A stretch of DNA of 64,000 bases from positions 310,001-374,000 of the forward strand of contig CANKZZ010000005.1 in NCBI GenBank assembly GCA_947488655.1. Reading direction: 5' to 3'. Below, in pieces: positions 41 through 63,299 of this stretch; position 1 is the stretch's first letter, and every line of letters begins with the position of its first letter. The translations under genes and the position numbers were made by a program. The stretch comes from an uncultured Psychroserpens sp. (GTDB taxonomy: Bacteria; Bacteroidota; Bacteroidia; Flavobacteriales; Flavobacteriaceae). Below the pieces are notes generated by a model. That model worked only from the letters and a program-made list of their open reading frames with translations. It searched no databases and had not been told where the DNA came from.

Positions 41-466
41 ATGACAATTTTAAACTCAAACGTGGCTCAGCAAATTGTAAAAGAGGTCAAATCTAATGCT
101 GGATCTATACATTTTTTTAATTATATAGCTGTGGTAGAATTTAACGAAGGTATTCATGCAGATTTACAAAGTGGCAGAGAGATTTTAGACTCTATGATGG
201 ATTACTTCGGAAATTCTAAACCTTTTGGAATTGTAGCAAATAGAATAAACTCCTACTCTATTGCTTTATTAGAGACTACAGAAGTTAGATCTATTTTTCC
301 TAATTTGGTGGCATACGGAATTGTTAGTCATGATCTAGCTGGACGAATGAATGCAGAAATAGAGAGTCAGTTTTGTACTTCCGAAGATATTAGTTTTAAT
401 AATCTTTACGAAGGTTTAGACACGGTCTATAAACGTGTTAAACACAGATCATTGCTATTAGATTAA
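41..466 (+). CDS. Hypothetical 141-aa cytoplasmic protein
   Basis: I do not recognise this family. The 141-residue product has no signal peptide or membrane segment. It shows alternating short beta strands and helices (for example FNYIAVVEF near residues 26-34 and FGIVANRI near 62-69), which would suit a small alpha/beta fold of the STAS/SpoIIAA-like kind. That fold assignment is only an impression. The gene converges with the S1-domain gene and their 3' ends overlap by 9 nt. It carries two copies of the TTCCGAAG word, at 205 and 379, in two different codon phases (F-G-N and S-E-D). An intact reading frame from ATG to TAA with ordinary codon use supports a real gene; the function is open. Confidence 0.8.
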   Translation: MTILNSNVAQQIVKEVKSNAGSIHFFNYIAVVEFNEGIHADLQSGREILDSMMDYFGNSKPFGIVANRINSYSIALLETTEVRSIFPNLVAYGIVSHDLAGRMNAEIESQFCTSEDISFNNLYEGLDTVYKRVKHRSLLLD

Positions 467-1291
467 ACGAATTCCGTCATTATCAATTGTAATTAAACGT
501 TGTTTATACAATGTTCCTATTGCTTTTTTAAACGTTTTTTTACTCATTTGAAGTTCTTGTTTAATGTCTTCTGGATTAGATTTATCATTAAGACCTAAAA
601 ATCCATCTTTACTATCTTCTAGATGTTGTAAAACGAGATCTGCATTAGGTTCTATTTTTCTATACCCAATTTTACCTAGAACTATATCTAATTTATTATC
701 GTCTCGTACTTTTTTAACAAAACCTTTTAAACGGTCTCCAACACTTATATCTTTAAAAATATCTTCTGTAAAGATTAGACCTAAATGTTGATCGTTTACT
801 ATAACATTCATTCCCAAATCTGATGGATGAGATACTATTAAATCTACTTCATCAAATTGCTGTACTGTTAATTCTTTATTATCTAAAAATCGATTAGTCT
901 TGCTAGAAGCTACAAGTCTATTAGTCTCTTCATCTAAATAGCAATGCACGAGATACCATCCTCCTGCTTTCATTTTAAAAGCTTGCTCTTTGAAGGGACA
1001 AAACAGTTCTTTTACCATTCCCCAATCTAAAAACGCACCATGAGTAGTAACTTGATTACAGCGCAATAAGGCAAACTCATCTCGCAAGATATATGGCTCA
1101 TCTGTAACTGCTACAGGACGCTCTTCATTATCTAAATAGACAAAAACCTCTAATTTTTCCCAAATTTGAAATGTCTCTGGCACATACCTATTTGGTAATA
1201 AAATTTCATTATCTTCTGCATCAGACAAGTATAAACCTTGCTCTGTTTCTCGTATAATTTCTAACGTATTGTAATCTCCTATTCTAATCAT
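458..1291 (-). CDS. cvfB: S1-like RNA-binding protein, CvfB family
   Basis: This 277-aa protein matches the CvfB/YitL family in length and layout. There are three successive S1/OB-type segments, at about residues 1-65, 70-135 and 150-210. A small winged-helix-like C-terminus follows (about 215-277, with the helical stretch EDIKQELQMSKKTFKKAIG). Family members bind RNA and affect virulence or stress gene expression in Firmicutes; the target in Bacteroidota is not known. The protein is cytoplasmic, with no signal peptide. Just upstream of the ATG lies a -7-like element TATCTTTG (minus strand 1303-1296), only 4 nt from the start codon, which suggests a very short or absent leader. The 3' end overlaps the convergent gene at 41-466 by 9 nt. 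The family call is firm; the symbol is by similarity. Confidence 0.85.
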   Translation of the reverse strand: MIRIGDYNTLEIIRETEQGLYLSDAEDNEILLPNRYVPETFQIWEKLEVFVYLDNEERPVAVTDEPYILRDEFALLRCNQVTTHGAFLDWGMVKELFCPFKEQAFKMKAGGWYLVHCYLDEETNRLVASSKTNRFLDNKELTVQQFDEVDLIVSHPSDLGMNVIVNDQHLGLIFTEDIFKDISVGDRLKGFVKKVRDDNKLDIVLGKIGYRKIEPNADLVLQHLEDSKDGFLGLNDKSNPEDIKQELQMSKKTFKKAIGTLYKQRLITIDNDGIRLI

Positions 1292-1295
1292 GTGG

Positions 1296-3710: not shown

Positions 3711-4847
3711 CTAATTAAAAAGAGCACCTAACATTGTTTGTGTTTTATTCACCGTTTCCTCCCACTCTAGCTGAGCTATGGAGTCTTTTGTAACTCCACC
3801 ACCAACGTAAATTAGCATATGTTGATCTTTCATTTGCATACAACGTAAATTAACAAATAGCTCACTAGATGTTTTAACTGAGTTATAAGCGTTATTTTCA
3901 ACATTACGACGATTTGTGTTTCTTGATTTTGAAACTTTAAAATTAAGTTCTCCTAAAAATCCTGTGTAAAATTCACGATCATAATTTTCATTTTGAAGTA
4001 TGAAATCTTTTGCATCAGTTTTTGGTAATCCACAAACCGCTGGAGTTGGATGTACTGCTAAAATAACACGATTTAAATGATTAGATTTTAAGACACCATT
4101 TATACGAGATTGCAAATGCAATAGTTGACCAGCTTTAATTGTTTGCACATTAAGTGCTTCTAATTTTTCAACAAATGGTTGTAAAGATTCTAATACAAAA
4201 TTCGTTACTAGCTGTTGTTCATTAATGTTTTTTGCATCCCATTTAATATCCAAACTACCGTTATAAGGCTGTGTACCTGCTAAAGACATAGTTGTAAATC
4301 TTTGACCTTTAATATTTAAAAGTGTCTCTGGTGTAGCACCAAACCACATGCCTATTTGTGGATGAAACCAAATATAAACAAATGCGGTTTTATAAGTTTC
4401 TAATAGAGATTTAAAAATATTAAATGGATTTTCTTCGGAAATTGGCACGTCTTTAACCCTAGATAATACAACCTTCTCAAACCTCTTATTATGAATAGCT
4501 TTAATTCCTTTTTCTACTAATTTGATATGTTGCTCTTGCTCATTATCTACATTATTAATAAACTTCTTATTTAAATCACGAGCATTTGTATTAGAGGTTT
4601 CCGAAAAAAATGTTGACTCAAAAGAAAGCGTTTTACATTTTTCTAAAGGAAATAGTATCGCCTCTTCTCTATTATCAAAAGGAGAAAACACAAAACCATT
4701 TTCGGTAAAATCTTTTACTTTATAAATAGATTTATCATCTTGAAGAATTGCGTTTACCACATTTTCATTTGGCTTTCTATAGGCTACAAAGGGTATTTGT
4801 GCACTATACTGCTCCTCTAATTTTGCAAAGACATCTTGCTCATTCAT
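3711..4847 (-). CDS. menF: Isochorismate synthase (MenF/EntC type)
   Basis: This enzyme converts chorismate to isochorismate, the substrate of MenD. The 378-aa protein belongs to the chorismate-utilising (ADC synthase) superfamily. Visible motifs are LAGTQPYN, with alanine where PabB-type enzymes carry a lysine, and the C-terminal LFVNLRCMQ and YVGGGVTKDS segments that form the Mg/chorismate site. The position between a hotdog thioesterase (3-nt gap upstream) and menD (downstream) selects isochorismate synthase over anthranilate or salicylate synthase. One TTCCGAAG word sits inside (4433), read as S-E-E. The function is well supported by motif and context. Confidence 0.92.
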   Translation of the reverse strand: MNEQDVFAKLEEQYSAQIPFVAYRKPNENVVNAILQDDKSIYKVKDFTENGFVFSPFDNREEAILFPLEKCKTLSFESTFFSETSNTNARDLNKKFINNVDNEQEQHIKLVEKGIKAIHNKRFEKVVLSRVKDVPISEENPFNIFKSLLETYKTAFVYIWFHPQIGMWFGATPETLLNIKGQRFTTMSLAGTQPYNGSLDIKWDAKNINEQQLVTNFVLESLQPFVEKLEALNVQTIKAGQLLHLQSRINGVLKSNHLNRVILAVHPTPAVCGLPKTDAKDFILQNENYDREFYTGFLGELNFKVSKSRNTNRRNVENNAYNSVKTSSELFVNLRCMQMKDQHMLIYVGGGVTKDSIAQLEWEETVNKTQTMLGALFN

Positions 4848-5296: not shown

Positions 5297-5962
5297 ATGA
5301 TTTTTTTACAACTACAAAAATACAAAATGAATTCTACAGAAAAGGAAATTTCTTATAACATAACCAATAGTTATTCTACCCTAAATGAATTAACCTCATC
5401 TACAAAAAATGTATGGTTTGTTTGCCATGGCATGGGCTATTTGAGCAGGTATTTTATTAGATATTTTAAAGGTTTAAATACCAAAGAGAATTATGTTATT
5501 GCGCCTCAAGCGCAAAGTAAATATTATATGACTCCTCAGTTTAAACATGTTGGTGCAAGTTGGCTTACTAGAGAAAACACACAAGTAGAAACACAAAATA
5601 TAATGACTTATTTTGATTCTATTATTGAGAAAGAGCAAATTTCCGAAGATAAAAATCTTATTATTTTGGGCTATTCCCAAGGTGTTAGCGTTGCCATGCG
5701 ATATGTTGCAAAAAAACAAATACAGTGTTCACAATTAATAATGCATTCTGGAGGCATACCAAAAGAATTAACTCAACAAGATTTCGAATTTTTTACAGGA
5801 GAATCAAAACTAATTTACGGTACTAATGATGAGTATCTTAATGAGCAGCGCATTAAAGAAGAGCACAATAAAGCGAAAAATTTATTTGGATCTAAACTTG
5901 ATGTTATATCCTTTGATGGTGTACATGAGGTAAATACAACTTTTATTAATCAACTCGTTTAA
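5297..5962 (+). CDS. Small alpha/beta serine hydrolase (esterase/phospholipase-like)
   Basis: The 221-aa alpha/beta hydrolase has a nucleophile elbow G-Y-S-Q-G (S127), an oxyanion-side motif VCHGMG (residues 42-47), and a plausible acid and base at D178 and H210 (DGVHEVN). It resembles the carboxylesterase/YpfH group of short serine hydrolases. The real start may be the second ATG at 5327 (MNSTEKEIS), since the ten residues before it look unstructured; that would leave 50 nt to the divergent thioesterase instead of 20. The stop codon is immediately followed by the ATG of the acetyltransferase, so the two are surely co-transcribed. It is not an obvious MenH. The TTCCGAAG copy at 5641 is read as S-E-D. 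Confidence 0.85.
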   Translation: MIFLQLQKYKMNSTEKEISYNITNSYSTLNELTSSTKNVWFVCHGMGYLSRYFIRYFKGLNTKENYVIAPQAQSKYYMTPQFKHVGASWLTRENTQVETQNIMTYFDSIIEKEQISEDKNLIILGYSQGVSVAMRYVAKKQIQCSQLIMHSGGIPKELTQQDFEFFTGESKLIYGTNDEYLNEQRIKEEHNKAKNLFGSKLDVISFDGVHEVNTTFINQLV

Positions 5963-6954: not shown

Positions 6955-8229
6955 TTAATTTAAACAATCAAAACACCCTTCTAATCCATCTAATTCTAAA
7001 TCTTCAGAGCCTTTTAATGGTGATTTCACCATTCCTTGTTTGTCTATTTCTTCTTTAAATTTTATAGCGTACTCAAGCAAGTCATCTCTTCTGTTTTTAA
7101 TTTTGTTTGTAATTTCAATACCGCTTAAAGCGCTAATATTATTTTGCCATACCTCTAGTGAAGCATCGATAACATCATTGGTTAACAAATTTTGGAGTGC
7201 TTTAGCTTCCGCAGTAAAAAAAGTTTCTGGTGTGTTGATTAAAAAATAACGATCAAAAGGGTAAACTAAACCTTCTATATAATCTATATCTTTTTCAAAC
7301 GAGCGCAACTCTGGGACGACATTTTCATTAGATAAAATACTTGGTATTAATCCATCTGTACTAAAAAAAGCATTATCTCTATCTCCAGCAATTGGGTATG
7401 CTATATAATTAAGTTTAGTTTTTTGTATTGCAAATCCCCATTGTTTGGTATGTCGATCCCAATCTCCAATTAAAAAATCAAATAATCGTGCTCTAATAAG
7501 TGCTTTTTTATCAATTAATAAACTGTCTTTTAGGGTTTGCTTGAGTTCTTGCAGGTCTTTGGCCTCAATTATACTTTCAATATTTTTGAGGTTGGTATAA
7601 TTTATATCACCTTCTGTTTCAAATTCTAAGAGAAACAATCGATTTCCAAACTTATCATTGAAATCTTCTAATTTTTTTTGCTTCGGAAGAAAATACACCT
7701 TTGGATTAGTATGTAACACCTCAGCCTCATGTGATAGTTTAGCTGCCAACAGTGCACCATAAGGATGCTGTGCAGAAATACCATCTACAACAATATTTTC
7801 TATGCCTAAAGTTTTAGCAAACTCTGGTATGAGTGGCTCTGGGTCTTTATTAATACTTCTTAATGTATAAATAATACCAGTATTTTTAGCCTTAAGTTTT
7901 AAAGAATGGGTTTGATTGCCTCCTCCTTCTTTTAAGATCGTTACACCACCAAATAGTGTGTCTAAAAATAATACTGGCACTTTAACTGGTGTTGACCACT
8001 CTGCTCTATATTGGCTTCCTTGTATGATTTCTTTCACAAGATTTGGTTGATATAATTGACTGGCTGCCACCAAAACAGAATCATACGCTTTAAAATTGAT
8101 GGTCTCAACATTATCAAAATTAATAAGTGTACTTTTCTCAAAGGTTTTATCTGTACTGGATAGAGACCAGTATATAATGGCAATGAGCGCTAAAAGTATA
8201 ATTATGACTGCTTGTAAAAATCGTTTCAT
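6955..8229 (-). CDS. Membrane-anchored kinase-fold-like protein
   Basis: The 424-aa protein has one N-terminal membrane helix (residues 5-24), so the bulk is probably periplasmic. The C-terminal half contains DFLIGDWDRHTKQWGFAI (residues 251-268) and AGDRDNAF (281-288). These resemble the catalytic loop (D-x-D-R-H-x-x-x) and metal-binding Asp of HipA/FAM20C-like kinases. Upstream, GGGNQTHSLKLK and YTLRSINKDP (about 102-130) could be the nucleotide-binding strands. Similar modules occur in Bacteroidota, sometimes fused to outer-membrane or phosphoesterase domains. Whether it is an active kinase is not known. The neighbouring small membrane protein gene (8311-8751) is on the same strand 81 nt upstream. 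It carries one TTCCGAAG word (7681). Confidence 0.6.
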   Translation of the reverse strand: MKRFLQAVIIILLALIAIIYWSLSSTDKTFEKSTLINFDNVETINFKAYDSVLVAASQLYQPNLVKEIIQGSQYRAEWSTPVKVPVLFLDTLFGGVTILKEGGGNQTHSLKLKAKNTGIIYTLRSINKDPEPLIPEFAKTLGIENIVVDGISAQHPYGALLAAKLSHEAEVLHTNPKVYFLPKQKKLEDFNDKFGNRLFLLEFETEGDINYTNLKNIESIIEAKDLQELKQTLKDSLLIDKKALIRARLFDFLIGDWDRHTKQWGFAIQKTKLNYIAYPIAGDRDNAFFSTDGLIPSILSNENVVPELRSFEKDIDYIEGLVYPFDRYFLINTPETFFTAEAKALQNLLTNDVIDASLEVWQNNISALSGIEITNKIKNRRDDLLEYAIKFKEEIDKQGMVKSPLKGSEDLELDGLEGCFDCLN

Positions 8230-9754: not shown

Positions 9755-10984
9755 TTAATCTTGAAATTTATAATAGCCACATTTTAAATACGCACCTTCC
9801 TCAAAACCAATAGGATGATCTACATCATGCTGCGTTTTTTGTAATACAGAAAATGAACGTTTTGTTGCTAATAAAGTTTGCTCATTAATATCGTAAAATG
9901 CTGTAGCCGATACTCTAGAAGAGCACGAAGCCAAAACTAAAAATCCTTCTCTCGCTGTTAATTTCTCTCCTAAACGAGCTAACTGCGCATATTTCTTTTT
10001 AGCCAGCTGAATTTCTGATTGTTGTTTTGCAAAACTTGGTGGATCTATAACCACGACATCAAATTTCTTTTTTGCTGAAATGAGCTCTTCTAAGATTTTA
10101 AAGGCATCACCAGCAAGCGTAATATGTTTACCAGAATAATTATTAAGCTCACCATTATGAACCGCAATTTCCAAAGCTTGAGCGCTAATATCTAGACTAG
10201 ACACCTCTTTTGCTCCATTTGCTAATGCATGAACCGAAAAACCTCCAGCGTAAGAAAACACATCTAACACCGTTTTATTTTTACTTAACAACCCAACCTG
10301 CCTTCTGTTCTCTCTATGATCTAAAAAATATCCTGTTTTATGACCTTTAATAACGTTTGCAGAGAAATTAACGCCATGCTCTACAAACTCTACGACTTCA
10401 TGATCTAAAGTCCCATAAACTACTTCTCCATCTTTAAGTTGATGAGAGGTAGATTGTTCTAAGCCACGACTTAATCGTAAAACTACGGTTTTGCAATTTG
10501 AGGTTTTTACTAAACTTTCTAAGATGGTTTTGAGATAAGGTAACCAAATTTGAGAATATAGTTTTACTACCAGTACTGTATCATAGACATCTGCTATTAA
10601 TGAAGGAAAACCATCGTTTTCTCCAAAAATAAGTCTATAGCTGGTAGTATTTGTCTTTAAAAGTGGTAAACGTTTTTGATAAGCGCTTTCTATTTTCCGA
10701 AGAAAAAAAGCATCATCTATTTGAGTAGGTTTTCCTTGATTATAAATTATTTTTATTCTAATTGGAGATTCTGCATCGTATAGACCTATACCAATCATAC
10801 CATTTTTTCGCTTTCCGAAGATTATTGCCAAATCTCCAGTTTGAGCATCATCATTAATTTTAATAATACTATCTGAAAACACCCAAGGATGACCTTGCTG
10901 TACATAATTTTCTCCCTTTGCAGTGAGCTTAACAGCTAAGCGTTTGGCTTGTATATTTCTATGTATTGATGATGAAAAATTCAT
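9755..10984 (-). CDS. rlmI: Class I SAM-dependent rRNA methyltransferase, RlmI/RlmK-like
   Basis: The 409-aa protein has a PUA domain (about residues 15-85, GHPWVFSDSI), a central RNA-binding part and a Rossmann methyltransferase domain. SAM motif I is VLDVFSYAGGFSVHAL near residue 240; the catalytic-site DPPSF is at 314-318; LASCSSRV follows near 350. This is the arrangement of 23S rRNA (cytosine-5) methyltransferase RlmI. The exact base modified is inferred from family only. The first in-frame ATG is used; AKRLAVKL about 12 residues later is where family similarity seems to begin. It holds two TTCCGAAG words 118 nt apart (10695 and 10813), one forcing the otherwise scarce CGG arginine codon. 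Confidence 0.85.
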   Translation of the reverse strand: MNFSSSIHRNIQAKRLAVKLTAKGENYVQQGHPWVFSDSIIKINDDAQTGDLAIIFGKRKNGMIGIGLYDAESPIRIKIIYNQGKPTQIDDAFFLRKIESAYQKRLPLLKTNTTSYRLIFGENDGFPSLIADVYDTVLVVKLYSQIWLPYLKTILESLVKTSNCKTVVLRLSRGLEQSTSHQLKDGEVVYGTLDHEVVEFVEHGVNFSANVIKGHKTGYFLDHRENRRQVGLLSKNKTVLDVFSYAGGFSVHALANGAKEVSSLDISAQALEIAVHNGELNNYSGKHITLAGDAFKILEELISAKKKFDVVVIDPPSFAKQQSEIQLAKKKYAQLARLGEKLTAREGFLVLASCSSRVSATAFYDINEQTLLATKRSFSVLQKTQHDVDHPIGFEEGAYLKCGYYKFQD

Positions 10985-12390: not shown

Positions 12391-12491
12391 GTTTAATTTT
12401 ATTTTTTTTTACTTTTTTAAGATACAAACTACAATTGTGATATTGTATTAATTTGTTCTTAAGTTTTTAATTTTCCGAAGAAAAAAGAAAG

Positions 12492-12613: not shown

Positions 12614-14533
12614 TTATTTTACTTCTTCAAAGTCTACGTCTTCTACATCGCTACTTTCGTCTGCTGCCTGTCCTTTGGCACCTGCACCTGCATCTGTTGG
12701 TCCACCTTCATTAGCTGGTCCTTGAGCATCTGCTTGTGCTTTGTACATTTCTTCACTAGCAACTTTCCAAGCTTCATTAATTTTTTCTAAAGCTGGCTCT
12801 ATAACTGCGATATCTTTAGTTTCGTATGCTTTTTTAAGTTCTTCTAAAGCGTCTTCAATTGGCTTTTTCTTATCGTCTGATAATTTATCACCAAATTCTT
12901 TCAATTGATTTTCTGTTTGAAAAATCATTGCATCTGCTTCATTTAACTTTTTAGCATTTTCTACTGCTTTAGCATCTGCATCTGCATTAGCTTCTGCTTC
13001 TTGCTTCATTTTAGCAATTTCATCTTCGGTTAAACCAGAAGATGCTTCGATACGAATATCTTGAGTTTTATTTGTTGCTTTATCTGTTGCAGAAACTTTA
13101 ATGATACCATTGGCATCAATATCAAACGTCACTTCAATTTGAGGTGTTCCTCTTTGTGCTGGTGGAATACCATCTAAATGGAAACGACCAATTGTTTTAT
13201 TATCTGCTGCCATAGCACGCTCTCCTTGTAATACATGGATTTCTACTGATGGCTGATTATCTGCTGCTGTAGAGAATACTTGTGATTTTTTAGTAGGAAT
13301 CGTTGTATTCGCTTCAATCAACTTTGTAAACACGTTACCCATAGTTTCAATACCAAGAGATAATGGTGTCACGTCTAATAAAAGAACGTCTTTTACATCT
13401 CCAGATAAAACACCACCTTGAATTGCTGCACCTAACGATACTACTTCATCAGGGTTAACTCCTTTACTTGGCGATTTTCCGAAGAATTTCTCAACCGCTT
13501 CCTGTACTGCAGGAATACGAGTTGATCCACCAACTAAAATAACTTGATCTATATCACTTTTTGATAAACCTGCAGCTTTCAATGCAGTTTCACAAGGCTC
13601 AATTGTACGTTTTACTAAATCGTCAATTAACTGCTCAAATTTAGAACGTGTTAATGTACGTACCAAGTGCTTAGGTCCAGAAGCTGTAGCTGTAACGTAT
13701 GGTAAATTGATTTCAGTTTGCTCAGAAGATGATAATTCAATCTTCGCTTTTTCAGACGCTTCTTTTAAACGTTGTAATGCCATTGGGTCTTTACGTAAAT
13801 CGATAGACTCTTCTGCATTAAACTCATCTGCTAACCAGTTGATAATTTTTTGATCAACATCATCACCACCTAAATGCGTATCACCATCTGTAGATAATAC
13901 TTCAAATACACCATCTCCTAATTCTAGGATAGATACATCGTGTGTTCCTCCACCAAAATCAAAAACTACAATTTTTTGGTCTGTACCTTTTTTGTCCATT
14001 CCATAAGCTAATGCTGCTGCAGTAGGTTCGTTGATAATACGACGAACTTTTAAACCTGCAATTTCACCTGCTTCTTTTGTTGCTTGACGTTGCGAATCAT
14101 TAAAGTAAGCTGGTACAGTAATTACTGCTTCAGTTACTGTTGCTCCTAAATAATCTTCGGCAGTTTTCTTCATTTTTTGAAGTATCATTGCCGATAATTC
14201 TTGAGGTGTGTATAAACGACCATCAATATCTACTCTTGGTGTATCGTTGTCACCTTTTACAACTTTATATGGTACACGTTCTGCCTCTTTTTTAGACTCA
14301 GAATATTTGTTACCCATAAAACGTTTAATAGAATAAACCGTTTTTGTTGGGTTTGTTACCGCTTGTCTTTTTGCTGGATCACCAACTTTAATTTCTCCTC
14401 CTTCTACAAAGGCAATTACAGATGGTGTTGTTCTTTTCCCTTCAGCATTAGGGATAACTACTGGCTCGTTACCTTCCATTACAGAAACGCAAGAGTTGGT
14501 AGTTCCTAAATCGATTCCAATAATCTTACTCAT
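12614..14533 (-). CDS. dnaK: Chaperone DnaK (Hsp70)
   Basis: The ATP-driven chaperone is 639 aa from the start chosen here. The ATG at 14533 gives [20 protein letters not shown], the invariant DnaK N-terminus. An in-frame ATG at 14641 would add 36 unrelated residues and is rejected. Landmarks are the phosphate loops [10 protein letters not shown] and [13 protein letters not shown], the [10 protein letters not shown] adenosine motif, the linker [16 protein letters not shown], and a substrate-binding domain with a lid ending in acidic [10 protein letters not shown]. Neither dnaJ nor grpE is adjacent. Two inverted repeats in the 200-nt gap to sdaA may be regulatory. One internal TTCCGAAG word (13477). 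Confidence 0.98.
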
Positions 14534-14605
14534 AATTATATTTGTTTTTATGTATTTCCTTTTTACTTCGGAAATGTTATGTTCATTTTTATTTACGTTT
14601 ACTAT

Positions 14606-19056: not shown

Positions 19057-19875
19057 TTAAGCAAAAGGGTACACAAGTGTTAACGTTACACCTTTATCAA
19101 TTGCTGATTCTAAGTTAAATTGCGTTTCAATAAGCTCTGCTCTAGCCTGCATATTAATGAGCCCTGACCCTTTTTCTGCGGAAGGTATTTCAAAACCAAT
19201 TCCATCATCTGATGCTTTGATAATCAACTGATTTTCTTGATAATCTAAAATAACTTTGATTTCATTTGCTTCGGAATATTTAACCGAATTGGAAAAGAAC
19301 TCTTGCAAAATCCTGAAAATAATAATTTCATGTTTTTTATCGTTGAGCTCTCTTTTGTTGCCGAGAAGTTCTAATTCTGTAGCAGAGAAATCCATACGTT
19401 TTAAGCGTTGCAATTCGTTTTCAATAGAAGCTTCTAATCCTAAATTTGATAAGACATCGCTATTTAAAGACTTTGAGAGTGCTCGAACCTCTGTTAAACT
19501 GTCTTTGACAATTTGAGTGGTTTCAACAACTTTACCTTTAATATCTTCTGGCACTTTAGCTCCTAAAGCATTGAGTTGCATATTAGCAAATGCGAGTAGC
19601 TGACCAACATTATCGTGTAATTCTCTACCTACATGTTTTAAGGTTTGTTCTTGGATTTCTGTTTGAGAACGTGAGATTTCTTCATCAAACACTTTTTGTT
19701 GTTTGATTTGGTCTAATAAAAGTTTACTTTTTCGTTTTTGAAAGGTTACAAAAAATAAGATAGCCATAATAGAGAGCAAAAAAACAGCAAAAATAACGTA
19801 TGCTATTAATGCTATTTGCTCTTCATTTATTGTTTGCTCTTCTTGAGCGAATACCAAAAACCGAATGCAATACAT
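19057..19875 (-). CDS. Orphan sensor histidine kinase (HisKA_3 type)
   Basis: The 272-aa NarX-like sensor kinase has a single membrane helix (about residues 22-45), a short coiled coil, a dimerisation and phosphoacceptor motif RELHDNVGQLLAFANMQLN (H87), and a HATPase_c domain with FFSNSVKYSEANE (N-box), DDGIGFEIP and GSGLINMQARAE. No sensor domain is present beyond the short N-terminus, and no NarL-type response regulator is adjacent. Its 5' end overlaps the upstream 7-helix-like membrane protein gene by 49 nt in another frame. Sensing may therefore come from that partner, which is inference. FFSNSVKYSEA contains a TTCCGAAG word (19269). Confidence 0.88.
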   Translation of the reverse strand: MYCIRFLVFAQEEQTINEEQIALIAYVIFAVFLLSIMAILFFVTFQKRKSKLLLDQIKQQKVFDEEISRSQTEIQEQTLKHVGRELHDNVGQLLAFANMQLNALGAKVPEDIKGKVVETTQIVKDSLTEVRALSKSLNSDVLSNLGLEASIENELQRLKRMDFSATELELLGNKRELNDKKHEIIIFRILQEFFSNSVKYSEANEIKVILDYQENQLIIKASDDGIGFEIPSAEKGSGLINMQARAELIETQFNLESAIDKGVTLTLVYPFA

Positions 19876-37797: not shown

Positions 37798-37907
37798 TTT
37801 TAAATTTGCAATTTTCGGTTTAACAGTTACTGCTTTATGAATTTTAAAGTTTCCGAAGAAAAAAAAGCTACAAGTCACGAAAATAAAATATATATGGCTT
37901 ATTAGTT

Positions 37908-40768: not shown

Positions 40769-42088
40769 TTAAAACAACTGATCTAATGTGATTTTTAAAA
40801 TATTTGTTGTACTCTTCTTGGCCACAAAACGCTCATCAACTCTCTTACCTAGCACCCAAACAATAGCGTCTCCATTGCATAACAACCAAGTTTGGTCTTT
40901 ATCTACGATTGAGAATTTTTCATCTTTAAAATATTTACTTAATTTCTTTTTACCTCTCATACCAGAAGGGTAAAAATAATCTCCTTCTCGCCACCTTCTA
41001 AGCGTTAAAGGAAAGCTCATTGCATCTTGGTCTATAAAAACTACATTAGCACTTTGTCCTAATATAGCATCGGCTTCATCAAAAAGTAAATTTCCTATTG
41101 GTGTTTTAAATTGCTTATCACTTTTTGCAATGTTATACACCTTATCATCTTTAGCAGCTATATCTGTTAAGATTAAGTGCTCTCTATCTTTTACAAGTCT
41201 ATAGGTGTTAGAGAACACTTGTTTTCCAGATTGCGCATCTAACAAATTAACTATATCATCCCATTGTGTAAATCCATAAGTCTGAAACACACCAAAAAGA
41301 TAAGCTTTGGGATTTTTTACTTTTTTGAATTCTGAAATTTTAAACTTTAATTGCAAACTGTCACAAGACACTATTGCATTTTCTGCGAATTGAGAAATTC
41401 TATCATTTACAATATCTGTAGTATCACTAAGATTATCTACAGTAGTATTAAAATTTTGAAGTAGTGTAGGATTTATTTCCTTTAAGATAGGTATGACCTC
41501 ATGACGTAATTTATTACGAAGGTATTTATTAGAGGCATTACTACTATCTTCTCTCCATTTTATATTTGTATTGTTAGCATAAAGCTCTAGTTCTTCTCTA
41601 GAAAAAGGTAATAATGGTCTAACTATATTATCATTAATTTCTGGAATACCTGTTAACCCACTTAAACCTGTGCCTCTTGTGAGATTTATTAATACGGTTT
41701 CTAGATTATCATCTGTATGATGAGCAGTTAGAATGTAATCAAAATTTAACGTTTTTGCGATATCAAAAAACCAATTATATCGTAATTCTCTAGCAGCTAA
41801 TTGTGTTGAGAGTTTATGTGTTTTCGCATAGTCTTCCGTAGAAAAATTTTGAATAAAAACCTCTAAGCTCAAATCGTTTGCTAAATCAATCACAAATGCT
41901 TCATCTGCATTGCTCTCATCACCTCTTAAATTAAAATTGCAATGTGCTAGAGTTATATTTAAATTTAATGTTTTGCATAATTGGGTTAGCACCACACTAT
42001 CCAATCCTCCCGAAATAGCAATTAGTAATTTTGCGTCATTAAGAAATGATAAATTTAAATGTATGTGATTTTTAAACTTGTGTTGCAT
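40769..42088 (-). CDS. tilS: tRNA(Ile)-lysidine synthase
   Basis: TilS adds lysine to C34 of the CAU-anticodon tRNA-Ile, converting its specificity from Met to Ile; it is essential. The 439-aa protein has the PP-loop ISGGLDSVVL (residues 25-34, S26-G-G-x-D-S), LAHCNFNLRGDESNADEAFV, TAHHTDDNLETVLINLTRGTG, and a C-terminal TilS domain (LTLRRWREGDYFYPSGMRGK). Cytoplasmic. It follows the lipase-like hydrolase by 3 nt in the pabB operon, a common flavobacterial neighbourhood. Confidence 0.97.
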   Translation of the reverse strand: MQHKFKNHIHLNLSFLNDAKLLIAISGGLDSVVLTQLCKTLNLNITLAHCNFNLRGDESNADEAFVIDLANDLSLEVFIQNFSTEDYAKTHKLSTQLAARELRYNWFFDIAKTLNFDYILTAHHTDDNLETVLINLTRGTGLSGLTGIPEINDNIVRPLLPFSREELELYANNTNIKWREDSSNASNKYLRNKLRHEVIPILKEINPTLLQNFNTTVDNLSDTTDIVNDRISQFAENAIVSCDSLQLKFKISEFKKVKNPKAYLFGVFQTYGFTQWDDIVNLLDAQSGKQVFSNTYRLVKDREHLILTDIAAKDDKVYNIAKSDKQFKTPIGNLLFDEADAILGQSANVVFIDQDAMSFPLTLRRWREGDYFYPSGMRGKKKLSKYFKDEKFSIVDKDQTWLLCNGDAIVWVLGKRVDERFVAKKSTTNILKITLDQLF

Positions 42089-42917: not shown

Positions 42918-44225
42918 TTAGTTTTCTAAAACCTCACGCATTGCTTTTGCTTTTACCAGGCATTCTTCATATTCTTTAAGCGGTTCACTCTTAGCAGTTA
43001 TGGCACCACCAACCGAGTAGGACACATATTTATTGGTTTCATTATATAAAATACTACGTATCACAACATTAAAATCAAAGTCATTATCAGGCGAAAAATA
43101 TCCAACAGCACCAGAGTAGAGTCCGCGTTTTGTTTCTTCCAACTCTTCAATTATCTTCATTGCCGAAATTTTTGGAGCTCCAGTCATGCTTCCCATAGGA
43201 AATGTTGATTTAATTATATCTACAGGATGTGTACTCTCATTTACCTGAGAGGTTACTGTAGATATCATTTGATGAACTTGATCAAAGGTATAAACCTTAC
43301 ACAACTCTTCTACTTTAACGCTTCCTTTTGTTGCTGTTTTTGATAAATCATTTCGTACCAAATCTACAATCATTACGTTTTCGCTTCGCTCCTTAATATC
43401 CTCTGTTAAGTGTTTTATTAATGCTTGGTCTTCTTTTTTATTTGAAGATCGCTTAGCGGTTCCTTTTATAGGCTGTGATATAATTTTTAAACCTTCCTTT
43501 CTAATGTAACGCTCTGGCGATGCACACATTAAATAGTTGTCATAGGCACGCATAAAGGTTGCAAATGGTGGTTTAGAGATAGTATTAAGTTTAAGATAGG
43601 TTTCTAACGGGTTAATTATTGTGTTTTCTGCATAAAACTCTTGGCAAAAATTAGCCTCGTAAATATCTCCTCTATTAATGTGAGACAGTATTTGGTTAAG
43701 TTTATTAAAATAGTCGTCTTTATGAATTCTTAATTTTATTTTAATAGTTTTTTCTTCGGAAACAGGCTTACTCAAATCCAAGTCTTTTTGAGTATAAATT
43801 GAATCTAAATCACCCTTTAGCTCATCTTCAACAAAATTTAGGTAATGCGTCTCTAGCACATTTCCTTTTAAAAAGAATATTTTTTTAGGCTGAAAGAAAA
43901 ACAAGTCTGGAAATCCTAACCCATCATAATTATTAGAGATTAAGCGCTCAACATCATTTTTTAAATCGTAAGACAGGTAACCAAAAACCCAATCGTTTGT
44001 GGTCGTTTGATATTCTTTGAGTTGATTGTAGGCATCATAATAGTCGGTTTGAAAAACTGTAAATGCTTCTACAGCCAAAACTGCATCATACGACCCGTGT
44101 TTTTGAGCATAGTTATTACTATCTAACCATACCACTTCATCAAATTGTGCACTCCAATACAGGAGTTGCTTTTTAAAAGTTTCGGGATTAGAAATATGTT
44201 GGGTTTTAACTTGTCTCAAGATCAT
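42918..44225 (-). CDS. pabB: Aminodeoxychorismate synthase component I
   Basis: PabB converts chorismate plus ammonia to 4-amino-4-deoxychorismate in folate synthesis. The 435-aa protein has ISQPIKGTAKRSSN with lysine K254, the residue that marks ADC synthase rather than anthranilate or isochorismate synthase (which have alanine). It also carries SENVMIVDLVRNDLSKTA, STFPMGSMTGAPKISAM and YSVGGAITAKSEPLKE. No pabA or pabC is adjacent. It is first gene of the run to ade; TTCCGAAG words lie inside (43754) and in the upstream gap (44278). Confidence 0.92.
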   Translation of the reverse strand: MILRQVKTQHISNPETFKKQLLYWSAQFDEVVWLDSNNYAQKHGSYDAVLAVEAFTVFQTDYYDAYNQLKEYQTTTNDWVFGYLSYDLKNDVERLISNNYDGLGFPDLFFFQPKKIFFLKGNVLETHYLNFVEDELKGDLDSIYTQKDLDLSKPVSEEKTIKIKLRIHKDDYFNKLNQILSHINRGDIYEANFCQEFYAENTIINPLETYLKLNTISKPPFATFMRAYDNYLMCASPERYIRKEGLKIISQPIKGTAKRSSNKKEDQALIKHLTEDIKERSENVMIVDLVRNDLSKTATKGSVKVEELCKVYTFDQVHQMISTVTSQVNESTHPVDIIKSTFPMGSMTGAPKISAMKIIEELEETKRGLYSGAVGYFSPDNDFDFNVVIRSILYNETNKYVSYSVGGAITAKSEPLKEYEECLVKAKAMREVLEN

Positions 44226-44293
44226 AATTAATGAAAAACAAATTTCCGAATTAATGTGGTCAATGACAACTATATTATTCCGAAGTAAAAAAT

Positions 44294-49070: not shown

Positions 49071-50147
49071 TTGTTAAACGCATTTATGTTTACTAAACAA
49101 TTTATTTTTAAAAAAACAGGTCAAGTACTTCTACACCTCATCTTTTGGGTTTGTGTATTGTTTTTTTACACCTATTTTTTTGGTGTGAGCAGCTCAAATT
49201 ACAATGACACGTTAAAGTTTTCTTTATTTTTAATGCCTATCACAATATCTACCACATACGTTTCTACTTATAAATTAATACCAGAATATTTAATTACAAA
49301 ACGGTATATACGTTTTGGTGTTTACACGCTTTTCACATTAATTATCTCGTTGTATTTACTCATGGTTTCTATATATTTTAGTTTTATATATATATCAAAT
49401 TTTGAGTATGCAAATATGAATCCTGCTACCAAGAATATTGTTTTTATTAGTACTGCAGTTTATTTGGTTGTCGTTATAGTGAGCGCTTTTAAATTGTTGA
49501 AACTTAATTTAAAACAGGCATCAAAAACAAAAGCTCTAGAAACCAAAATTTTAAATACTCAACTTAAATTAAAGGAGCAAGAGCTTAACTATTTAAAAAT
49601 GCAAATTCATCCGCATTTTTTGTTTAATACTTTAAATACGATGTATGGTTTGGCTTTAAAAAAGGCAGAGCAAACGCCTGATATGATTTTAAAACTGTCT
49701 AATTTATTAGATTACTTACTGTATCAGACTGAAAAACCTATCGTTCCCATTTCCGAAGAAATTGAACATATTAAAGATTATATCGCTTTAGAAAAAATGC
49801 GTTTTAATGATACGCTAGCTATTAATATGATTGTTAATTTAGAATCAAAAAATCTAACTATTGCTCCAATGTTACTGCTTCCGTTTATAGAAAATAGTTT
49901 TAAGCATGGTAGTATTACAAATGGAATTTTAAATATTGACATTGAATTAACAGCAGGTTTGGATCAGGTTCATTTCCGTATAAAAAATTCTAAGTCTCAA
50001 AGTAAATCTTCTCAAAATGGTATTGGATTAGAAAATATTAAAAAGAGACTAGAATTATTATATCCTAAAAAGCATGACATAACAATACATAATGATGGTG
50101 ATACTTTTGAGGTAGATTTGCATTTAAACATAGTAAGCAATGATTAA
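49071..50147 (+). CDS. LytS-like sensor histidine kinase (His_kinase family)
   Basis: The 358-aa sensor has four membrane helices (residues 18-37, 50-66, 82-108, 122-140), a coiled-coil linker, and the His_kinase phosphoacceptor motif MQIHPHFLFNTLNTMYG (H182). A HATPase domain follows with PMLLLPFIENSFKHGS and NGIGLENIKKRLELLYP. A second ATG at 49086 (MFTKQFIF) is an equally plausible start. It overlaps the LytTR regulator gene by 8 nt, so this is a complete two-component pair. The signal is unknown. One TTCCGAAG word (49751) is read as S-E-E. Confidence 0.92.
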   Translation: MLNAFMFTKQFIFKKTGQVLLHLIFWVCVLFFYTYFFGVSSSNYNDTLKFSLFLMPITISTTYVSTYKLIPEYLITKRYIRFGVYTLFTLIISLYLLMVSIYFSFIYISNFEYANMNPATKNIVFISTAVYLVVVIVSAFKLLKLNLKQASKTKALETKILNTQLKLKEQELNYLKMQIHPHFLFNTLNTMYGLALKKAEQTPDMILKLSNLLDYLLYQTEKPIVPISEEIEHIKDYIALEKMRFNDTLAINMIVNLESKNLTIAPMLLLPFIENSFKHGSITNGILNIDIELTAGLDQVHFRIKNSKSQSKSSQNGIGLENIKKRLELLYPKKHDITIHNDGDTFEVDLHLNIVSND

Positions 50148-50856
50148 TACTCACATGATTTCTTGTTTGATTGTTGATGATGAATCTATTGCGAGAGAAA
50201 TCATTGCAACGCATTTATCAAAGATTAAAAACATTAACGTAGTTGGGAGTTGCAGCAATGCATTAGAGGCGTTTAACCATATTAGTAATCAACAAATTGA
50301 TCTCGTGTTTTTGGATATAAATATGCCTGAAATTTCGGGAATTTCATTTGCCAAATCTATTAATTCTAATATTAAAGTAATTTTCACAACTGCATACAGA
50401 GATTACGCTGTAGAGGGTTTTGAGCTTAAAGCGGTTGATTATTTATTAAAACCCATATCTTTTAAAAGGTTAGAGCAAGCTTTACAAACTTATTTTGATA
50501 TCTACGGAAATATTACAGACACAAAACCGTCTACTTTTGAAGTAACAGACTTTATGTTTGTAAGGTCTGAGCGTAAAATGATTAAGATTGATTATAGCTC
50601 AATTTATTATATAGAAAGTTATAGTGATTACTTAAAAATACACTTAGACAACCAAACAATTGTTACCAGAGAAACCATTAGTGCCATTGAAGCAAAGCTA
50701 CCAAAGCACTTATTTATAAGGATTCATCGCTCTTACATTATTTCAATTCATTTTATTCAATCCTTTACTAATGAATATATTACTGTACACAACAAAGCAT
50801 TACCCATTAGCAGGTCTTACAAGAAAGAAGTTTTAAAGCAACTTGAAAAATTTTAA
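50140..50856 (+). CDS. LytTR-family response regulator
   Basis: The 238-aa regulator has a receiver domain with acidic pocket D13-D14 and phosphoacceptor D59 (VFLDINMPEISG), a FTTAYRDYAVEGF switch region, and a C-terminal LytTR DNA-binding domain (DFMFVRSERKMIKIDYSSIYYI; PKHLFIRIHRSYII). ATG 50155 (MISCLIVDD) may be the true start, since LIVDD is where the fold begins. Its partner kinase overlaps upstream. LytTR regulators often control envelope or exopolysaccharide genes; targets are not evident, though the downstream GYF-type gene is 71 nt away on the same strand. Confidence 0.93.
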   Translation: MINTHMISCLIVDDESIAREIIATHLSKIKNINVVGSCSNALEAFNHISNQQIDLVFLDINMPEISGISFAKSINSNIKVIFTTAYRDYAVEGFELKAVDYLLKPISFKRLEQALQTYFDIYGNITDTKPSTFEVTDFMFVRSERKMIKIDYSSIYYIESYSDYLKIHLDNQTIVTRETISAIEAKLPKHLFIRIHRSYIISIHFIQSFTNEYITVHNKALPISRSYKKEVLKQLEKF

Positions 50857-52300: not shown

Positions 52301-53006
52301 TACGTCTTTCAATTAGCTTTCTAATTTCAGATATTTTAGAAATTGTTTTCCCCATATATTCCACTTGGCCAGATCTATTATCTTTAAATAGTTTAAAAAG
52401 TATAATTGTAGATGGCTTTTCAAAAAAGCTTTTAGAATCAATAGGTACGCAAAAATGCTCCCACTTAAAATCTAAAAATTCTTGTTTTATAATTGGTGTC
52501 CAATCGGCAATAAAGGACTCCTCTACATCGAGTGTGCTCTCAGATACCTTAAATAGAAATTCATCATAATATGATATCAATGCTAATTGTAATTCATTAT
52601 CAGTAATATTCTCAATACCTTTAGATTTTAATACTTCAAATGCACTCGACTGAGATTTAAACCGCTGAAAATTTATGATTTTACCCATCATGTAATTTAG
52701 GCTATCATTATAGTTGCCTTGTTTAACCTGGTTAAGTAAAAGGTCTGTTGATTCTACTGCTAACTTTGCTTTTTTAAGTTCAATAGATAATGAAATAGAA
52801 TCCTGCACAAGATTATTATCAATTAGTGCAATAATTTCAGATTCAAATAAATTTTTCTTTCTGTTTTCATTCCAATTGTTAATCTGTAGAGCAATTAAAA
52901 TCCCAATAACCACAAGGACGATTTCACCAATGGCATACTTAAAATATTTAGTTGCTTTTCCTTCGGAAATGTAACGTTGCCTTATATGTCTAAAAAATTT
53001 AATCAT
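52293..53006 (-). CDS. DUF6090 family membrane protein, paralogue 2
   Basis: The 237-aa member of the tandem array has the N-terminus MIKFFRHIRQRYISEGKATK, then the shared anchor YAIGEIVLVVIGILIALQIN and NWNENRKKN. The remaining approximately 190 residues are helical and unlike those of the neighbours. The start overlaps the stop of paralogue 1, and its own stop overlaps the start of paralogue 3, each by 4 nt (ATGA). The three genes are thus one translationally coupled unit. The RYISEGK motif is where the TTCCGAAG word (52961) sits; paralogue 3 has F in place of S. Confidence 0.88.
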   Translation of the reverse strand: MIKFFRHIRQRYISEGKATKYFKYAIGEIVLVVIGILIALQINNWNENRKKNLFESEIIALIDNNLVQDSISLSIELKKAKLAVESTDLLLNQVKQGNYNDSLNYMMGKIINFQRFKSQSSAFEVLKSKGIENITDNELQLALISYYDEFLFKVSESTLDVEESFIADWTPIIKQEFLDFKWEHFCVPIDSKSFFEKPSTIILFKLFKDNRSGQVEYMGKTISKISEIRKLIERRKK

Positions 53007-55443: not shown

Positions 55444-55497
55444 CGATTTTGATTTTTGAATTGCGAACCTCATTACTTGTTTTTTCTTCGGAAATAT

Positions 55498-60419: not shown

Positions 60420-61529
60420 TCAAATACCTTTTATACGCAACCATAATGCTGTTAACGTAAATTTTAAATCATCTATCTCTGGTGCAAACGATTTCATATC
60501 TAGACGATTATTCGATTTATACAATTTCAAATTAAACACAGGTTTAAAACCATCTCTCGTTTCTACTAATGGGTATCGTAAATCTTTGTACATATATTCT
60601 CCTGATGCAATCTCCTCGACACTATAATAATTGTTACTAAACCAAGCTAAGTCTCTAAGGTCTTTAAAATCTTCTTCTTTTAACGCTCTTTTCTTCGGAA
60701 GCGTTTTCCATCCAGAAAAAGTGTTTAACTCGTCAAATAATGAGTAATAAGCAACTTTATAGCTATCTTCTGTTTCTGCTACTCCATACCACAATATATT
60801 GTTTAATATTGAAGGTTGAGTACTAAATCTTTGATGAACTATTCCTTCTTTTTCCAGAGAGGAAGTAAATAAACTATCTATATAAATTTTGTTACACACT
60901 GTTAAAAGCATGTAAAACGAACTCAAACCAATACCAATTTTTAACCATAGTCTTCGTTTCATATTTTGCCTTTTAAAAAACATTAATACAATCATAGCTA
61001 TCAAAAAAGGTAGTGTATATAATGGATCTGCTACTGCAATATTATTAAAGGCAACTCGATAATTTGAAAATGGTGCAAATAATTGTGTGCCATATGGTGT
61101 AAAACAATCTAAAATAGGATGTGTGAATAATGACCAGAAAAATAATTTAACCCAATCTTTTTGAGTTGTATTGATTTCTTGTTTATGTCTATTATAAGAT
61201 GTATTTAAAAATCTACTAATTTGATAAGTGCCTAAAAATGAAAACATCGACCCAAGAAAAGTATTTTGTTTTAAATTTTCATAGGCCTTATACATTAGCC
61301 AACCCAATAAAAATGAAGCCAAAACTGAGAATAGAATGGAGTGCATAAAGCCTCTATGAAATAGCATAATATCTATCTCATTGCTATAAAATATTTTTCC
61401 GAAGAAAACATCCAAATCAGGTATAGTACCACCAATTGCTCCAAATAGTAAAGCCTTATTTCCTATTTTTTTTCCAAGAACAGCTTCTCCACAAGCAGCA
61501 CCTAATACGATTTGAGTTAGTGAGTCCAT
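60420..61529 (-). CDS. YdjM-type membrane-bound metal-dependent hydrolase (DUF457)
   Basis: The 369-aa protein starts MDSLTQIVLGAACGEAVLG and contains GGTIPDLDVFFGKIF, FHRGFMHSILFSVLASFLLG and FTHPILDCFTPYG, the aspartate/histidine set of the LexA-regulated YdjM/DUF457 family. About four to five membrane helices are predicted in the first 230 residues, followed by a soluble C-terminal domain of about 140 residues (GWKTLPKKRALKEEDFKDLR) that is longer than in E. coli YdjM. The substrate is unknown. TTCCGAAG words occur at both ends (60693 and 61397). It is divergent from the NhaC gene. Confidence 0.88.
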   Translation of the reverse strand: MDSLTQIVLGAACGEAVLGKKIGNKALLFGAIGGTIPDLDVFFGKIFYSNEIDIMLFHRGFMHSILFSVLASFLLGWLMYKAYENLKQNTFLGSMFSFLGTYQISRFLNTSYNRHKQEINTTQKDWVKLFFWSLFTHPILDCFTPYGTQLFAPFSNYRVAFNNIAVADPLYTLPFLIAMIVLMFFKRQNMKRRLWLKIGIGLSSFYMLLTVCNKIYIDSLFTSSLEKEGIVHQRFSTQPSILNNILWYGVAETEDSYKVAYYSLFDELNTFSGWKTLPKKRALKEEDFKDLRDLAWFSNNYYSVEEIASGEYMYKDLRYPLVETRDGFKPVFNLKLYKSNNRLDMKSFAPEIDDLKFTLTALWLRIKGI

Positions 61530-61631
61530 TTATAATTTTACAATTAAAGGGTAAATGTACACAACTATTACCATTTGCAGAATAGACAACAAAATCGTAA
61601 CATTACAATGCAAAAATAACACTACAACCAA

Positions 61632-63299
61632 ATGAGCAACGACAATAATATTTCAGATTTTAAAGCTAAAGATCAAAACATTGTTGAGAATAAGGAACTT
61701 AACTTTTTTGAAGCCTTAATTCCTGTTATTATTTTAGTAGGTATGTTAGCTTATAATATCTTTTTTGTTAAAGATCAAGAATGGTTTGGTGGTTATACTA
61801 ATCAAATAATTCTTTTATTAGGAGGTGCTGTAGCTGCAATAGTTGGTTTTTTAAATAAAGTTTCTATCTCAAAAATGATTAAAGAGGTATGGGAAAACCT
61901 CAAAAGTGTTTTTGTACCAATTATGATATTATTTTTTGTAGGTGCACTCGCAGGTACTTGGCTTATAAGTGGTGTAATTCCTGCCATGGTTTATTATGGT
62001 TTACAAGTATTAAACCCAGCAATATTTTTACCAGCATCTGTAATAATAGCTGCAGTAATATCTATAGCCACAGGTAGTAGCTGGACAACATCTGCAACAG
62101 TAGGTATAGCACTAGTTGGTATTGGCACCGCTTTGGGTATCAATCCTGGAATGATTGCTGGTGCAGTAATCTCTGGTGCGTATTTTGGTGATAAAATGTC
62201 TCCCTTGAGTGACACTACAAATCTTGCTCCAGCAATGGCAGGAACAGATTTATTTACGCACATAAAATACATGTCGTATACAACTGTGCCTACAATTATT
62301 ATTACTCTTATTATCTTCGGAATAATAAGCGCATCTATAGACACAACAGGAAATGCAGATATTACGCAAATTTTAGAAATCATTAATGCAACATTTAATA
62401 TTACACCTTGGTTATTTTTAGTTCCTGTGGCTGTAGTTGCTTTAATACTATTAAAAACAAAACCTTTAATAGCATTAGGAACAGGTGTGGTATTAGCCAT
62501 TATTTTTGCATTTATTTTTCAGCCAGAAGTGTTAGAAAACGTAACAGGCTCTAAATCTAAAACAGTTGTAAATGCTATATTTACAGATACAAATATACCA
62601 ATAGATGATTCTGCCTATGTTGCAAATTTAAGTCCTGCAGACATTGAGATTATCAATACAAATGAAAGTCTAGAATCGCTCTTTAAAGATGGCGGAATAG
62701 AAAGAAATTTTACTACTGAAGAATTACTAGAATCTTTTGCGCATGGAAACTATGACAAAGAAACATTAGATTTAAAAACTGAAAGTTTAAGCAGATTATT
62801 AACAATTGATAAACTTAAACAACTATTTAATGCTGGAGGAATGAATGGGATGCTCTGGACTATATACCTTATAATTTGTGCCATGGTTTTTGGAGGTATA
62901 ATGGATGGTATTGGTGCATTATCTAGAATTACTAAAGCCTTACTCTCAATCGCGACCTCTGTATTTGGCTTATTTTTAAGTACTGTTGCCAGCTGTTTAG
63001 GTTTAAATATTATAGCTTCAGATCAATATTTAGCAATAGTTATACCAGGTAAAATGTTTAAACAGGCTTACGAAGACAGAGGACTCGCACCAGAAAATCT
63101 CTCTAGAACATTAGAAGACTCTGGTACCGTAACATCTGTTTTAATTCCTTGGAATACGTGTGGTGCTTATCAATCTGGTGTATTAGGAGTTGGTGTTGGC
63201 GAGTATATTTTCTATGCCATATTTAACTGGTTAAGTCCATTTACAACACTACTATTTGCTGCATTAAATATTAAAATAAGACAATTAAAAGCTAAATAA
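61632..63299 (+). CDS. nhaC: NhaC-family Na+/H+ antiporter
   Basis: The 555-aa inner-membrane antiporter has about 11-12 helices and the family segments ISIATGSSWTTSATVGIALVG, GAYFGDKMSPLSDTTNLAPA (ion-site Asp) and LEDSGTVTSVLIPWNTCGAY. A soluble insertion of about 90 residues (from near 310 to 400, PIDDSAYVANLSPADIEIIN) sits between membrane halves; it is longer than in Bacillus NhaC and may be regulatory. It exports Na+ in exchange for H+, fitting a marine habitat. A strong terminator follows. One TTCCGAAG word is at 62315. Confidence 0.92.
   Translation: MSNDNNISDFKAKDQNIVENKELNFFEALIPVIILVGMLAYNIFFVKDQEWFGGYTNQIILLLGGAVAAIVGFLNKVSISKMIKEVWENLKSVFVPIMILFFVGALAGTWLISGVIPAMVYYGLQVLNPAIFLPASVIIAAVISIATGSSWTTSATVGIALVGIGTALGINPGMIAGAVISGAYFGDKMSPLSDTTNLAPAMAGTDLFTHIKYMSYTTVPTIIITLIIFGIISASIDTTGNADITQILEIINATFNITPWLFLVPVAVVALILLKTKPLIALGTGVVLAIIFAFIFQPEVLENVTGSKSKTVVNAIFTDTNIPIDDSAYVANLSPADIEIINTNESLESLFKDGGIERNFTTEELLESFAHGNYDKETLDLKTESLSRLLTIDKLKQLFNAGGMNGMLWTIYLIICAMVFGGIMDGIGALSRITKALLSIATSVFGLFLSTVASCLGLNIIASDQYLAIVIPGKMFKQAYEDRGLAPENLSRTLEDSGTVTSVLIPWNTCGAYQSGVLGVGVGEYIFYAIFNWLSPFTTLLFAALNIKIRQLKAK

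Follow-up and report, generated by a model that had tools for sequence, protein, structure and literature searches.

The 64-kb stretch of DNA analysed here (the window) spans positions 310001-374000 of contig 5 in the 3.6 Mb, 20-contig genome of an uncultured Psychroserpens sp. (genome label G000), and a short word, TTCCGAAG, recurs throughout it. Exact copies number 31 (positions 205..62322), 15 on the forward and 16 on the reverse strand, as the initial annotation had counted them when it proposed a candidate genome-wide signal word. It had also estimated that base composition predicts about one copy, in agreement with the mean of 0.97 (maximum 4) obtained from 100 dinucleotide shuffles of the window; an order-2 Markov model predicts 0.34, and TTCCGAAG is the window's most over-represented 8-mer. 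The excess spans the genome rather than these 64 kb, and its properties resemble, by analogy, those of a DNA uptake signal.

Based on open reading frames (ORFs) of at least 90 amino acids (aa), 28 window copies are genic and three intergenic (12473..12480, forward, with AAAAAA next; 44278..44285, forward; 55486..55493, reverse), where five intergenic copies had been claimed. Two copies lie in the ORF at 41-466 (205..212, reverse; 379..386, forward), one in an ORF at 3711-4847 encoding a chorismate-binding enzyme (4433..4440, reverse), and two, both forward, lie antisense in a Methyltrans_SAM/PUA methyltransferase gene at 9755-10984 (10695..10702 and 10813..10820). The product of this last gene, which we take to be RlmI-like, is 83-88% identical to proteins of Arcticiflavibacter luteus and several Psychroserpens. 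The HSP70 gene carries one antisense copy (13477..13484, forward) and one sense copy (14566..14573, reverse), and two further copies (25875..25882 and 26953..26960, both reverse) fall within a reverse-strand gene at 25831..27369 for a Mg-chelatase-like ATPase (Mg_chelatase 5e-93, ChlI, Mg_chelatase_C), presumably of the ComM type, ComM being a competence gene in other bacteria. The remaining exact matches are located at 5641..5648, 22875..22882, 23532..23539, 30307..30314, 32556..32563, 34896..34903, 37851..37858, 49751..49758 and 61397..61404 on the forward strand, and at 7681..7688, 19269..19276, 22134..22141, 31324..31331, 37632..37639, 39347..39354, 43754..43761, 52961..52968, 60693..60700 and 62315..62322 on the reverse strand. 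The genic copies are read as TCC GAA (11), TTC GGA (9), CCG AAG (4), CTT CGG (2) or TCT TCG (2); the last three counts had been given correctly, whereas the first two had been put at 10 and 8. TTCCGAA occurs 33 times, 31 of them with G next (TTCCGAAA once, TTCCGAAT once, TTCCGAAC never), matching the earlier remark that the core without its final G is seen about twice. Separately, GC skew flips sign towards the end of the window: it is +0.041 at 56001-64000, after -0.057 over the 8 kb before.

Across the G000 genome, TTCCGAAG occurs 1194 times (580 forward, 614 reverse), compared with 119 occurrences (57 and 62) of the reversed word, used as a rough control. Two samples, each about 13% of its genome, were analysed further: 464 kb of G000 (the window plus 20 stretches) and 480 kb of G006, a single-contig congener. 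TTCCGAAG is the top 8-mer in both, with 170 copies against 3.8 expected and 297 against 7.6, respectively, supporting its description as a genome-wide word; the exact density is 0.33/kb in the G000 genome, 0.37/kb in its sample and 0.62/kb in the G006 sample. Within genes, here predicted ORFs without annotation, 142 copies in G000 compare with a mean of 7.5 and a maximum of 15 in 100 synonymous shuffles, which permute codons within each gene and do not preserve codon pairs, and 255 copies in G006 compare with a mean of 15.1 and a maximum of 24. The excess therefore goes beyond codon use, as had been argued. All six phase/strand classes of coding sequence contain the word, and intergenic DNA, which makes up 8.6% of the G000 sample and 8.2% of the G006 sample, is favoured: it holds 25 of 170 copies in the former (p = 0.009) and 42 of 297 in the latter (p = 0.0006), a density 1.6-2 times that within genes.

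No significant strand preference was seen. Sense and antisense copies stand at 71:74 in G000 (p = 0.87) and 113:142 in G006 (p = 0.08), without significant bias, and the comparison with the leading strand suggested at the outset gave no bias either (68:70 and 103:108), with GC skew standing in for mapping of the origin and terminus, and with stretches of absolute skew below 0.02 excluded. Densities are similar in the tandem, divergent and convergent gaps of G000, and divergent gaps of G006 have about half the density of the others. One of 24 G006 stretches (L122, G006:C1:3420001-3440000) is word-poor, with 2 copies against 12.4 expected; among the 8 of its 20 ORFs of at least 120 aa that were scanned are ParB, DUF932, two HlyD-type proteins and one OEP efflux protein, as well as TauE and a protein with rhodanese and metallo-beta-lactamase folds, and by gene content this stretch looks like an acquired DNA island.

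The motif extends past the octamer, reading T-TTCCG(A>C,T)AG followed by an A-rich tract some 9 bp long, so that the A-rich 3' side noticed in the window is found in both samples. T directly precedes the core with a frequency of 0.70 in G000 and 0.63 in G006, and A occupies +9..+17 with frequencies of 0.47-0.80 (background 0.34) and 0.42-0.72 (background 0.33), respectively. The suggestion that all eight bases are selected did not hold, since position 6 tolerates C and T: enrichment relative to synonymous shuffles is 7.2x in G000 and 13.4x in G006 for TTCCGCAG, and 5.9x and 7.7x, respectively, for TTCCGTAG. Their flank is similar and somewhat weaker, A at +9..+14 reaching 0.49-0.55 compared with 0.62-0.66 for the exact word. 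The window contains four copies of this variant class, TTCCGCAG at 7207..7214 (forward) and 19176..19183 (reverse) and TTCCGTAG at 41834..41841 (forward) and 50502..50509 (reverse), while TTCCG(A/C/T)AG as a whole occurs 223 times in the 464 kb of G000 and 465 times in the 480 kb of G006. Among single-base variants, position 6 is the only graded core position. An apparent degeneracy at position 4 was discarded as an artefact, because the C preceding TTCGGAAG (25 of 29 cases in G000, 55 of 57 in G006) makes it overlap the word on the other strand. Degeneracy at position 2 was rejected as largely codon use: in a test covering TGCCGAAG and TACCGAAG and leaving out TCCCGAAG, enrichment over synonymous shuffles was 0.6-3.5x in ten genomes, with the highest value for TGCCGAAG in G000 (3.5x). 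TTCCGAAG differs from its own reverse complement and is thus no palindrome; only 15% of copies in the G000 sample have the preceding C that completes CTTCCGAAG.

Enrichment varies widely among relatives. In 23 congeners, taken to include P. damuponensis, P. burtonensis, P. algicola and others, the ratio of word to reversed word ranges from 1.1 (G014, 293/269) to 18.4 (G006, 2174/118) and is at least 3 in 11 genomes. Counts were 1520/175 in P. damuponensis, 1060/173 in P. burtonensis and 707/220 in P. algicola, with 1240/376 in Subsaximicrobium wynnwilliamsii and 847/256 in Algibacter miyuki. Low-word congeners keep residual TTCCGAAG (22 vs 3.1 in G012, 18 vs 2.7 in G002), and no comparable alternative word was found in low-word G014, where CTTCAGAA reaches 2.5x over synonymous shuffles without flanks. 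As an observation apart, 5 of 8 stretches of G002 (L156, L173-L179) together hold 26 copies of CGTGTATA, where 2.4 were expected; this may be a dispersed repeat family.

A survey of 249 Flavobacteriaceae genomes from 235 genera, a few of them incomplete (down to 68%), found a ratio of at least 3 in 20 genomes belonging to 17 genera, and of at most 1 in most others. TTCCGAAG is the top word among 8-mers present in at least 60% of stretches in G148, G098 and G161, representing three further genera, and likewise in G029; G161 shows a strong preference for 5' T and 3' A, its 5' T exceeding that of G000 and G006, and this preference is weak in G029, G148 and G098. G113 offered 2 copies in one 20-kb stretch, too short to judge. 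Across the phylum (118 genomes, 107 outside the family), no outside genome reached one third of the 332 copies per Mb of G000; 11 of the 107 exceeded three times the reversed-word control, in some cases because that control is rare there. In G377 and G411, from another family of the phylum, 199 and 201 copies contrast with just 8 and 20 for the reversed word, which composition may account for.

Aligned sites were also compared in relatives, as initially envisaged. For 11 sites in the first 21.5 kb of the window and 13 relatives, 37 of 72 aligned comparisons were identical; control 8-mers containing a CpG and four G+C were so in 906 of 6651. Owing to the common ancestry of the relatives, the 72 comparisons are not independent. 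The 35 non-identical sites comprise 17 with single changes and 18 with two or more.

By analogy with systems described elsewhere, TTCCGAAG and its flanks (T-TTCCG[A>C,T]AG, A-rich tract) would, in our judgement, probably serve as a DNA uptake signal sequence. The earlier preference for an uptake-like over a Chi- or KOPS-like word is supported by strand symmetry, the graded position 6, the A-tract, the variation among species and the finding of those competence genes that were sought; the HIP-like alternative named beside it appears less apt, since HIP1 is palindromic and TTCCGAAG is not. HIP1 of cyanobacteria, whose function is open, is an octamer repeated across genome and relatives, a property that TTCCGAAG shares while differing in its asymmetry and one-sided A-rich tract. 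Chi, strand-biased along replichores, and KOPS (FtsK-orienting polar sequences), polarised from origin to terminus, are also octamers over-represented genome-wide, whereas TTCCGAAG has no strand bias by GC skew. To our knowledge, uptake sequences have been described only in Pasteurellaceae and Neisseriaceae, and their origin is debated.

The uptake signal sequences (USS) of Pasteurellaceae (AAGTGCGGT or ACAAGCGGT) show no orientation bias, a density near 1/kb and AT-rich 3' segments (PMC1626085, PMC7811141). Their likenesses with TTCCGAAG are a short core, a one-sided AT-rich flank, unbiased orientation, differences between species by substitution and a word common to a subclade (PMC1626085, PMC7811141). 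Unlike the USS, TTCCGAAG has an unrelated core, sparser exact copies and one A-rich tract instead of two AT segments; it occurs in a different phylum, perhaps with a different uptake machine. Nor do its perfect copies exceed single mismatches, as those of Pasteurellaceae 9-mers do, which is a reported property rather than a definition (PMC1626085). The DNA uptake sequence (DUS) of Neisseriaceae (GCCGTCTGAA) is likewise genome-wide and unbiased in orientation but is described as having no flanking motifs (PMC1626085), and its reader is given as ComP (PMC3868556). No uptake word in Bacteroidota was found described in the open-access papers searched, subscription papers and preprint servers being outside this coverage.

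A model for such uptake is provided by Riemerella anatipestifer. Its transformation requires a DUF5689 protein and an outer-membrane protein with a carboxypeptidase-regulatory domain, in addition to ComEC, DprA, ComF, RecA, helix-hairpin-helix and DUF1343 proteins, and it is about 130-fold lower in an RS07335 mutant (PMC8459023); PMC7965970 lists this gene under the name ComM. Mutation of tonBA or tonBB also lowers transformation, the tonBB effect being ascribed by the authors to iron shortage (PMC8383284). By predicted domains, G000 has part of this gene set: a ComEC domain at G000:C2:359395-360195, a DUF5689+DUF5017 protein (476 aa) adjoining a 957-aa CarboxypepD_reg protein at locus L133, and the ComM-type gene of the window (25831-27369).

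We infer that a surface protein of the competence machinery, for which the DUF5689 protein or its outer-membrane partner are candidates, would bind the core in double-stranded DNA, and that the A-tract may aid bending or opening of the DNA. Word-bearing fragments would then be taken in more often, and their recombination would let the word accumulate over time, as proposed for the Haemophilus USS and the Neisseria DUS.

Several observations weigh against an uptake function. We know of no uptake assay for Psychroserpens. The exact density (0.33/kb) is lower than that of the Haemophilus influenzae USS. Perfect copies relate to single mismatches as 0.54-0.69 (four words of 8-10 bases, two genomes), some 20-30 times the expected 0.02-0.03, yet they remain in the minority. 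Spacing is slightly evener than random in G000 (p = 0.03) and not in G006, a weak point, and opposite-strand pairs with starts at most 32 bp apart number 4 in the G006 sample and 0 in that of G000. The competence search covered ComEC, DUF5689/CarboxypepD_reg and ComM. Of 57 genomes (G000 included), 52 had ComEC and 45 had DUF5689, some of them without the word, and the ComEC family was also present in 10 of 14 control genomes, so that presence of ComEC or DUF5689 fails to separate enriched from unenriched genomes. Since both also occur in word-less genomes, the presence of the machinery leaves word density unexplained; related genes in relatives without the word allow an uptake function and do not prove it. 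Flavobacterium johnsoniae carries homologues of the set, yet it was not transformable under the conditions tried (PMC7965970, PMC8459023).

A wider proposal, which we put forward tentatively, concerns self-recognition in DNA uptake across Flavobacteriaceae: TTCCGAAG-A(n) may be a family-level password, read on the cell surface by the DUF5689/outer-membrane-receptor machinery rather than by type IV pilins, gained or lost repeatedly among genera, and of a third independent origin. Its pilus-free element is a guess by analogy, built on the Riemerella model. If an uptake role is correct, the word would constitute a third, unrelated case of uptake sequences, in Bacteroidota and possibly with a different uptake machine, and congeners ranging from almost none to 18-fold enrichment would let the biased-uptake model be tested directly. 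The word could also bear on R. columbina, which prefers its own DNA, a preference reported without a word; in the k-mer rows examined, raw counts gave A/T-rich repeats only, and the authors left the question open (PMC7965970). Adding the word could, in addition, become a practical handle for the genetics of marine flavobacteria.

Other explanations were weighed against the same evidence. It is unlikely that the word is a sequence-specific DNA modification site, of the orphan methyltransferase kind, or a product of mutation or repair bias. Such a bias has been suspected for HIP1 and for Vsr-type repair, and the occurrence of TTCCGAAG in every phase and strand class, as well as between genes, would suit either mechanism, as would, for repair, the mild scarcity of TTCCAAAG, a neighbour one step from the word that repair of this kind would use up (20 vs 29 in G000, 23 vs 44 in G006). 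Against them, the word is non-palindromic, and the 5' T, the A-rich tract and the C/T forms at position 6 suggest a reader of about 17 bp. Repair bias is further opposed by TTCTGAAG, undepleted in G006 (1.2x) and barely depleted in G000 (0.8x), and by the 18 of 35 non-identical aligned sites that differ at two or more positions, meaning that not all lie one repair step from the word.

We are more doubtful still that TTCCGAAG is where an abundant nucleoid-associated or chromosome-organising protein binds. Its genome-wide, strand-symmetric distribution and its 1.6-2 times greater density between genes would accord with such a role, and A-tracts are a feature of bent sites; such sites are commonly less exact, however, and both the variation among congeners and the lack of enrichment in most genera would be odd for a structural function. 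A recombination signal of the Chi kind, or one for segregation like KOPS, which AddAB/RecBCD or FtsK would read directionally, is improbable: Chi typically stands out as an exact octamer in excess across the genome, and we know of no Chi word for Flavobacteriaceae, a literature search having given a single unrelated paper, but the strands are even by GC skew (68:70 and 103:108) and in the window (15:16), the position-6 degeneracy and A-rich tract are un-Chi-like, and enrichment ranges from 1.1 to 18x inside one genus. This reading was rejected for want of strand bias by GC skew. That the complement, TTTC-TTCG-GAAA, for which a hairpin with a cUUCGg loop can be drawn, forms a UUCG tetraloop RNA element is hardly credible and was rejected, as its stem has no covariation (first pair 0.52 observed vs 0.53 expected, other pairs similar), copies in sense and antisense orientation are almost as numerous as each other (71:74 and 113:142), and gap types have like densities in G000, with divergent gaps at about half in G006. 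Equally remote is a codon, codon-pair or protein-motif effect, to which Ser-Glu and Phe-Gly, the commonest readings, might point: all six phase/strand classes are occupied, the word is denser in intergenic DNA, and a codon effect was rejected since synonymous shuffles, which do not keep codon pairs, remove the excess (about 95% of coding copies).

Returning to the uptake signal, a candidate receptor was sought in a second DUF5689 protein of G000, P0001 (G000:C2:104286-106034), which carries a type IX secretion system (T9SS) tail and is represented by itself or a relative in 8 of 23 congeners. The locus order is histidine kinase, response regulator, surface protein, LuxE-like protein and tyrosyl-tRNA synthetase (TyrRS), with contig ends truncating it in a few of the 23; the other congeners encode there a protein with a similar tail and a centre without a DUF5689 match. 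Pfam scans covered P0001 together with 10 proteins drawn from 9 of the remaining 22 loci, and for G021, one of the eight, DUF5689 was found in the domain search and was absent from its protein scan. The eight congeners with the P0001 type tend to have higher word ratios than the 15 others (Mann-Whitney p = 2.9e-5); on a tree of 22 genomes, which left out G018 (no RlmI match) and in which G014 was only 34% filled, the trait shows three changes only and is clustered. The sister pair G005 (with the P0001 type) and G010 (without) have equal ratios of 3.2, and G008, without it, has a ratio of 4.7. Outside the genus, G143 is the one enriched genome with a full-length relative, and the unenriched G264, G155 and G176 have such relatives too. 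A comparison of P0001 with solved structures gave a match limited to the secretion tail region. Confounded by phylogeny, these sequence comparisons are at most a hint that the P0001-type protein might be the receptor of the word.

The same locus (L095:4283-6034, with L136, L137, L139-L143 and L153-L167 in relatives) has features of its own. The T9SS tail is conserved among Psychroserpens, whereas the N-terminal and central parts vary by species, with LTD, CBM_4_9, DUF5689 or nothing recognised; judged by its predicted proteins, it is a variable surface-protein locus flanked by a two-component system and a LuxE-like gene. The neighbouring TyrRS (L095:1271-2623) falls into two classes, the copies in L136, L137, L140, L142 and L154 being 85-94% identical to that of G000 and those in the remaining congener loci that contain it about 71-75%. 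The neighbours split less sharply, a pattern that suggests allelic replacement by recombination.

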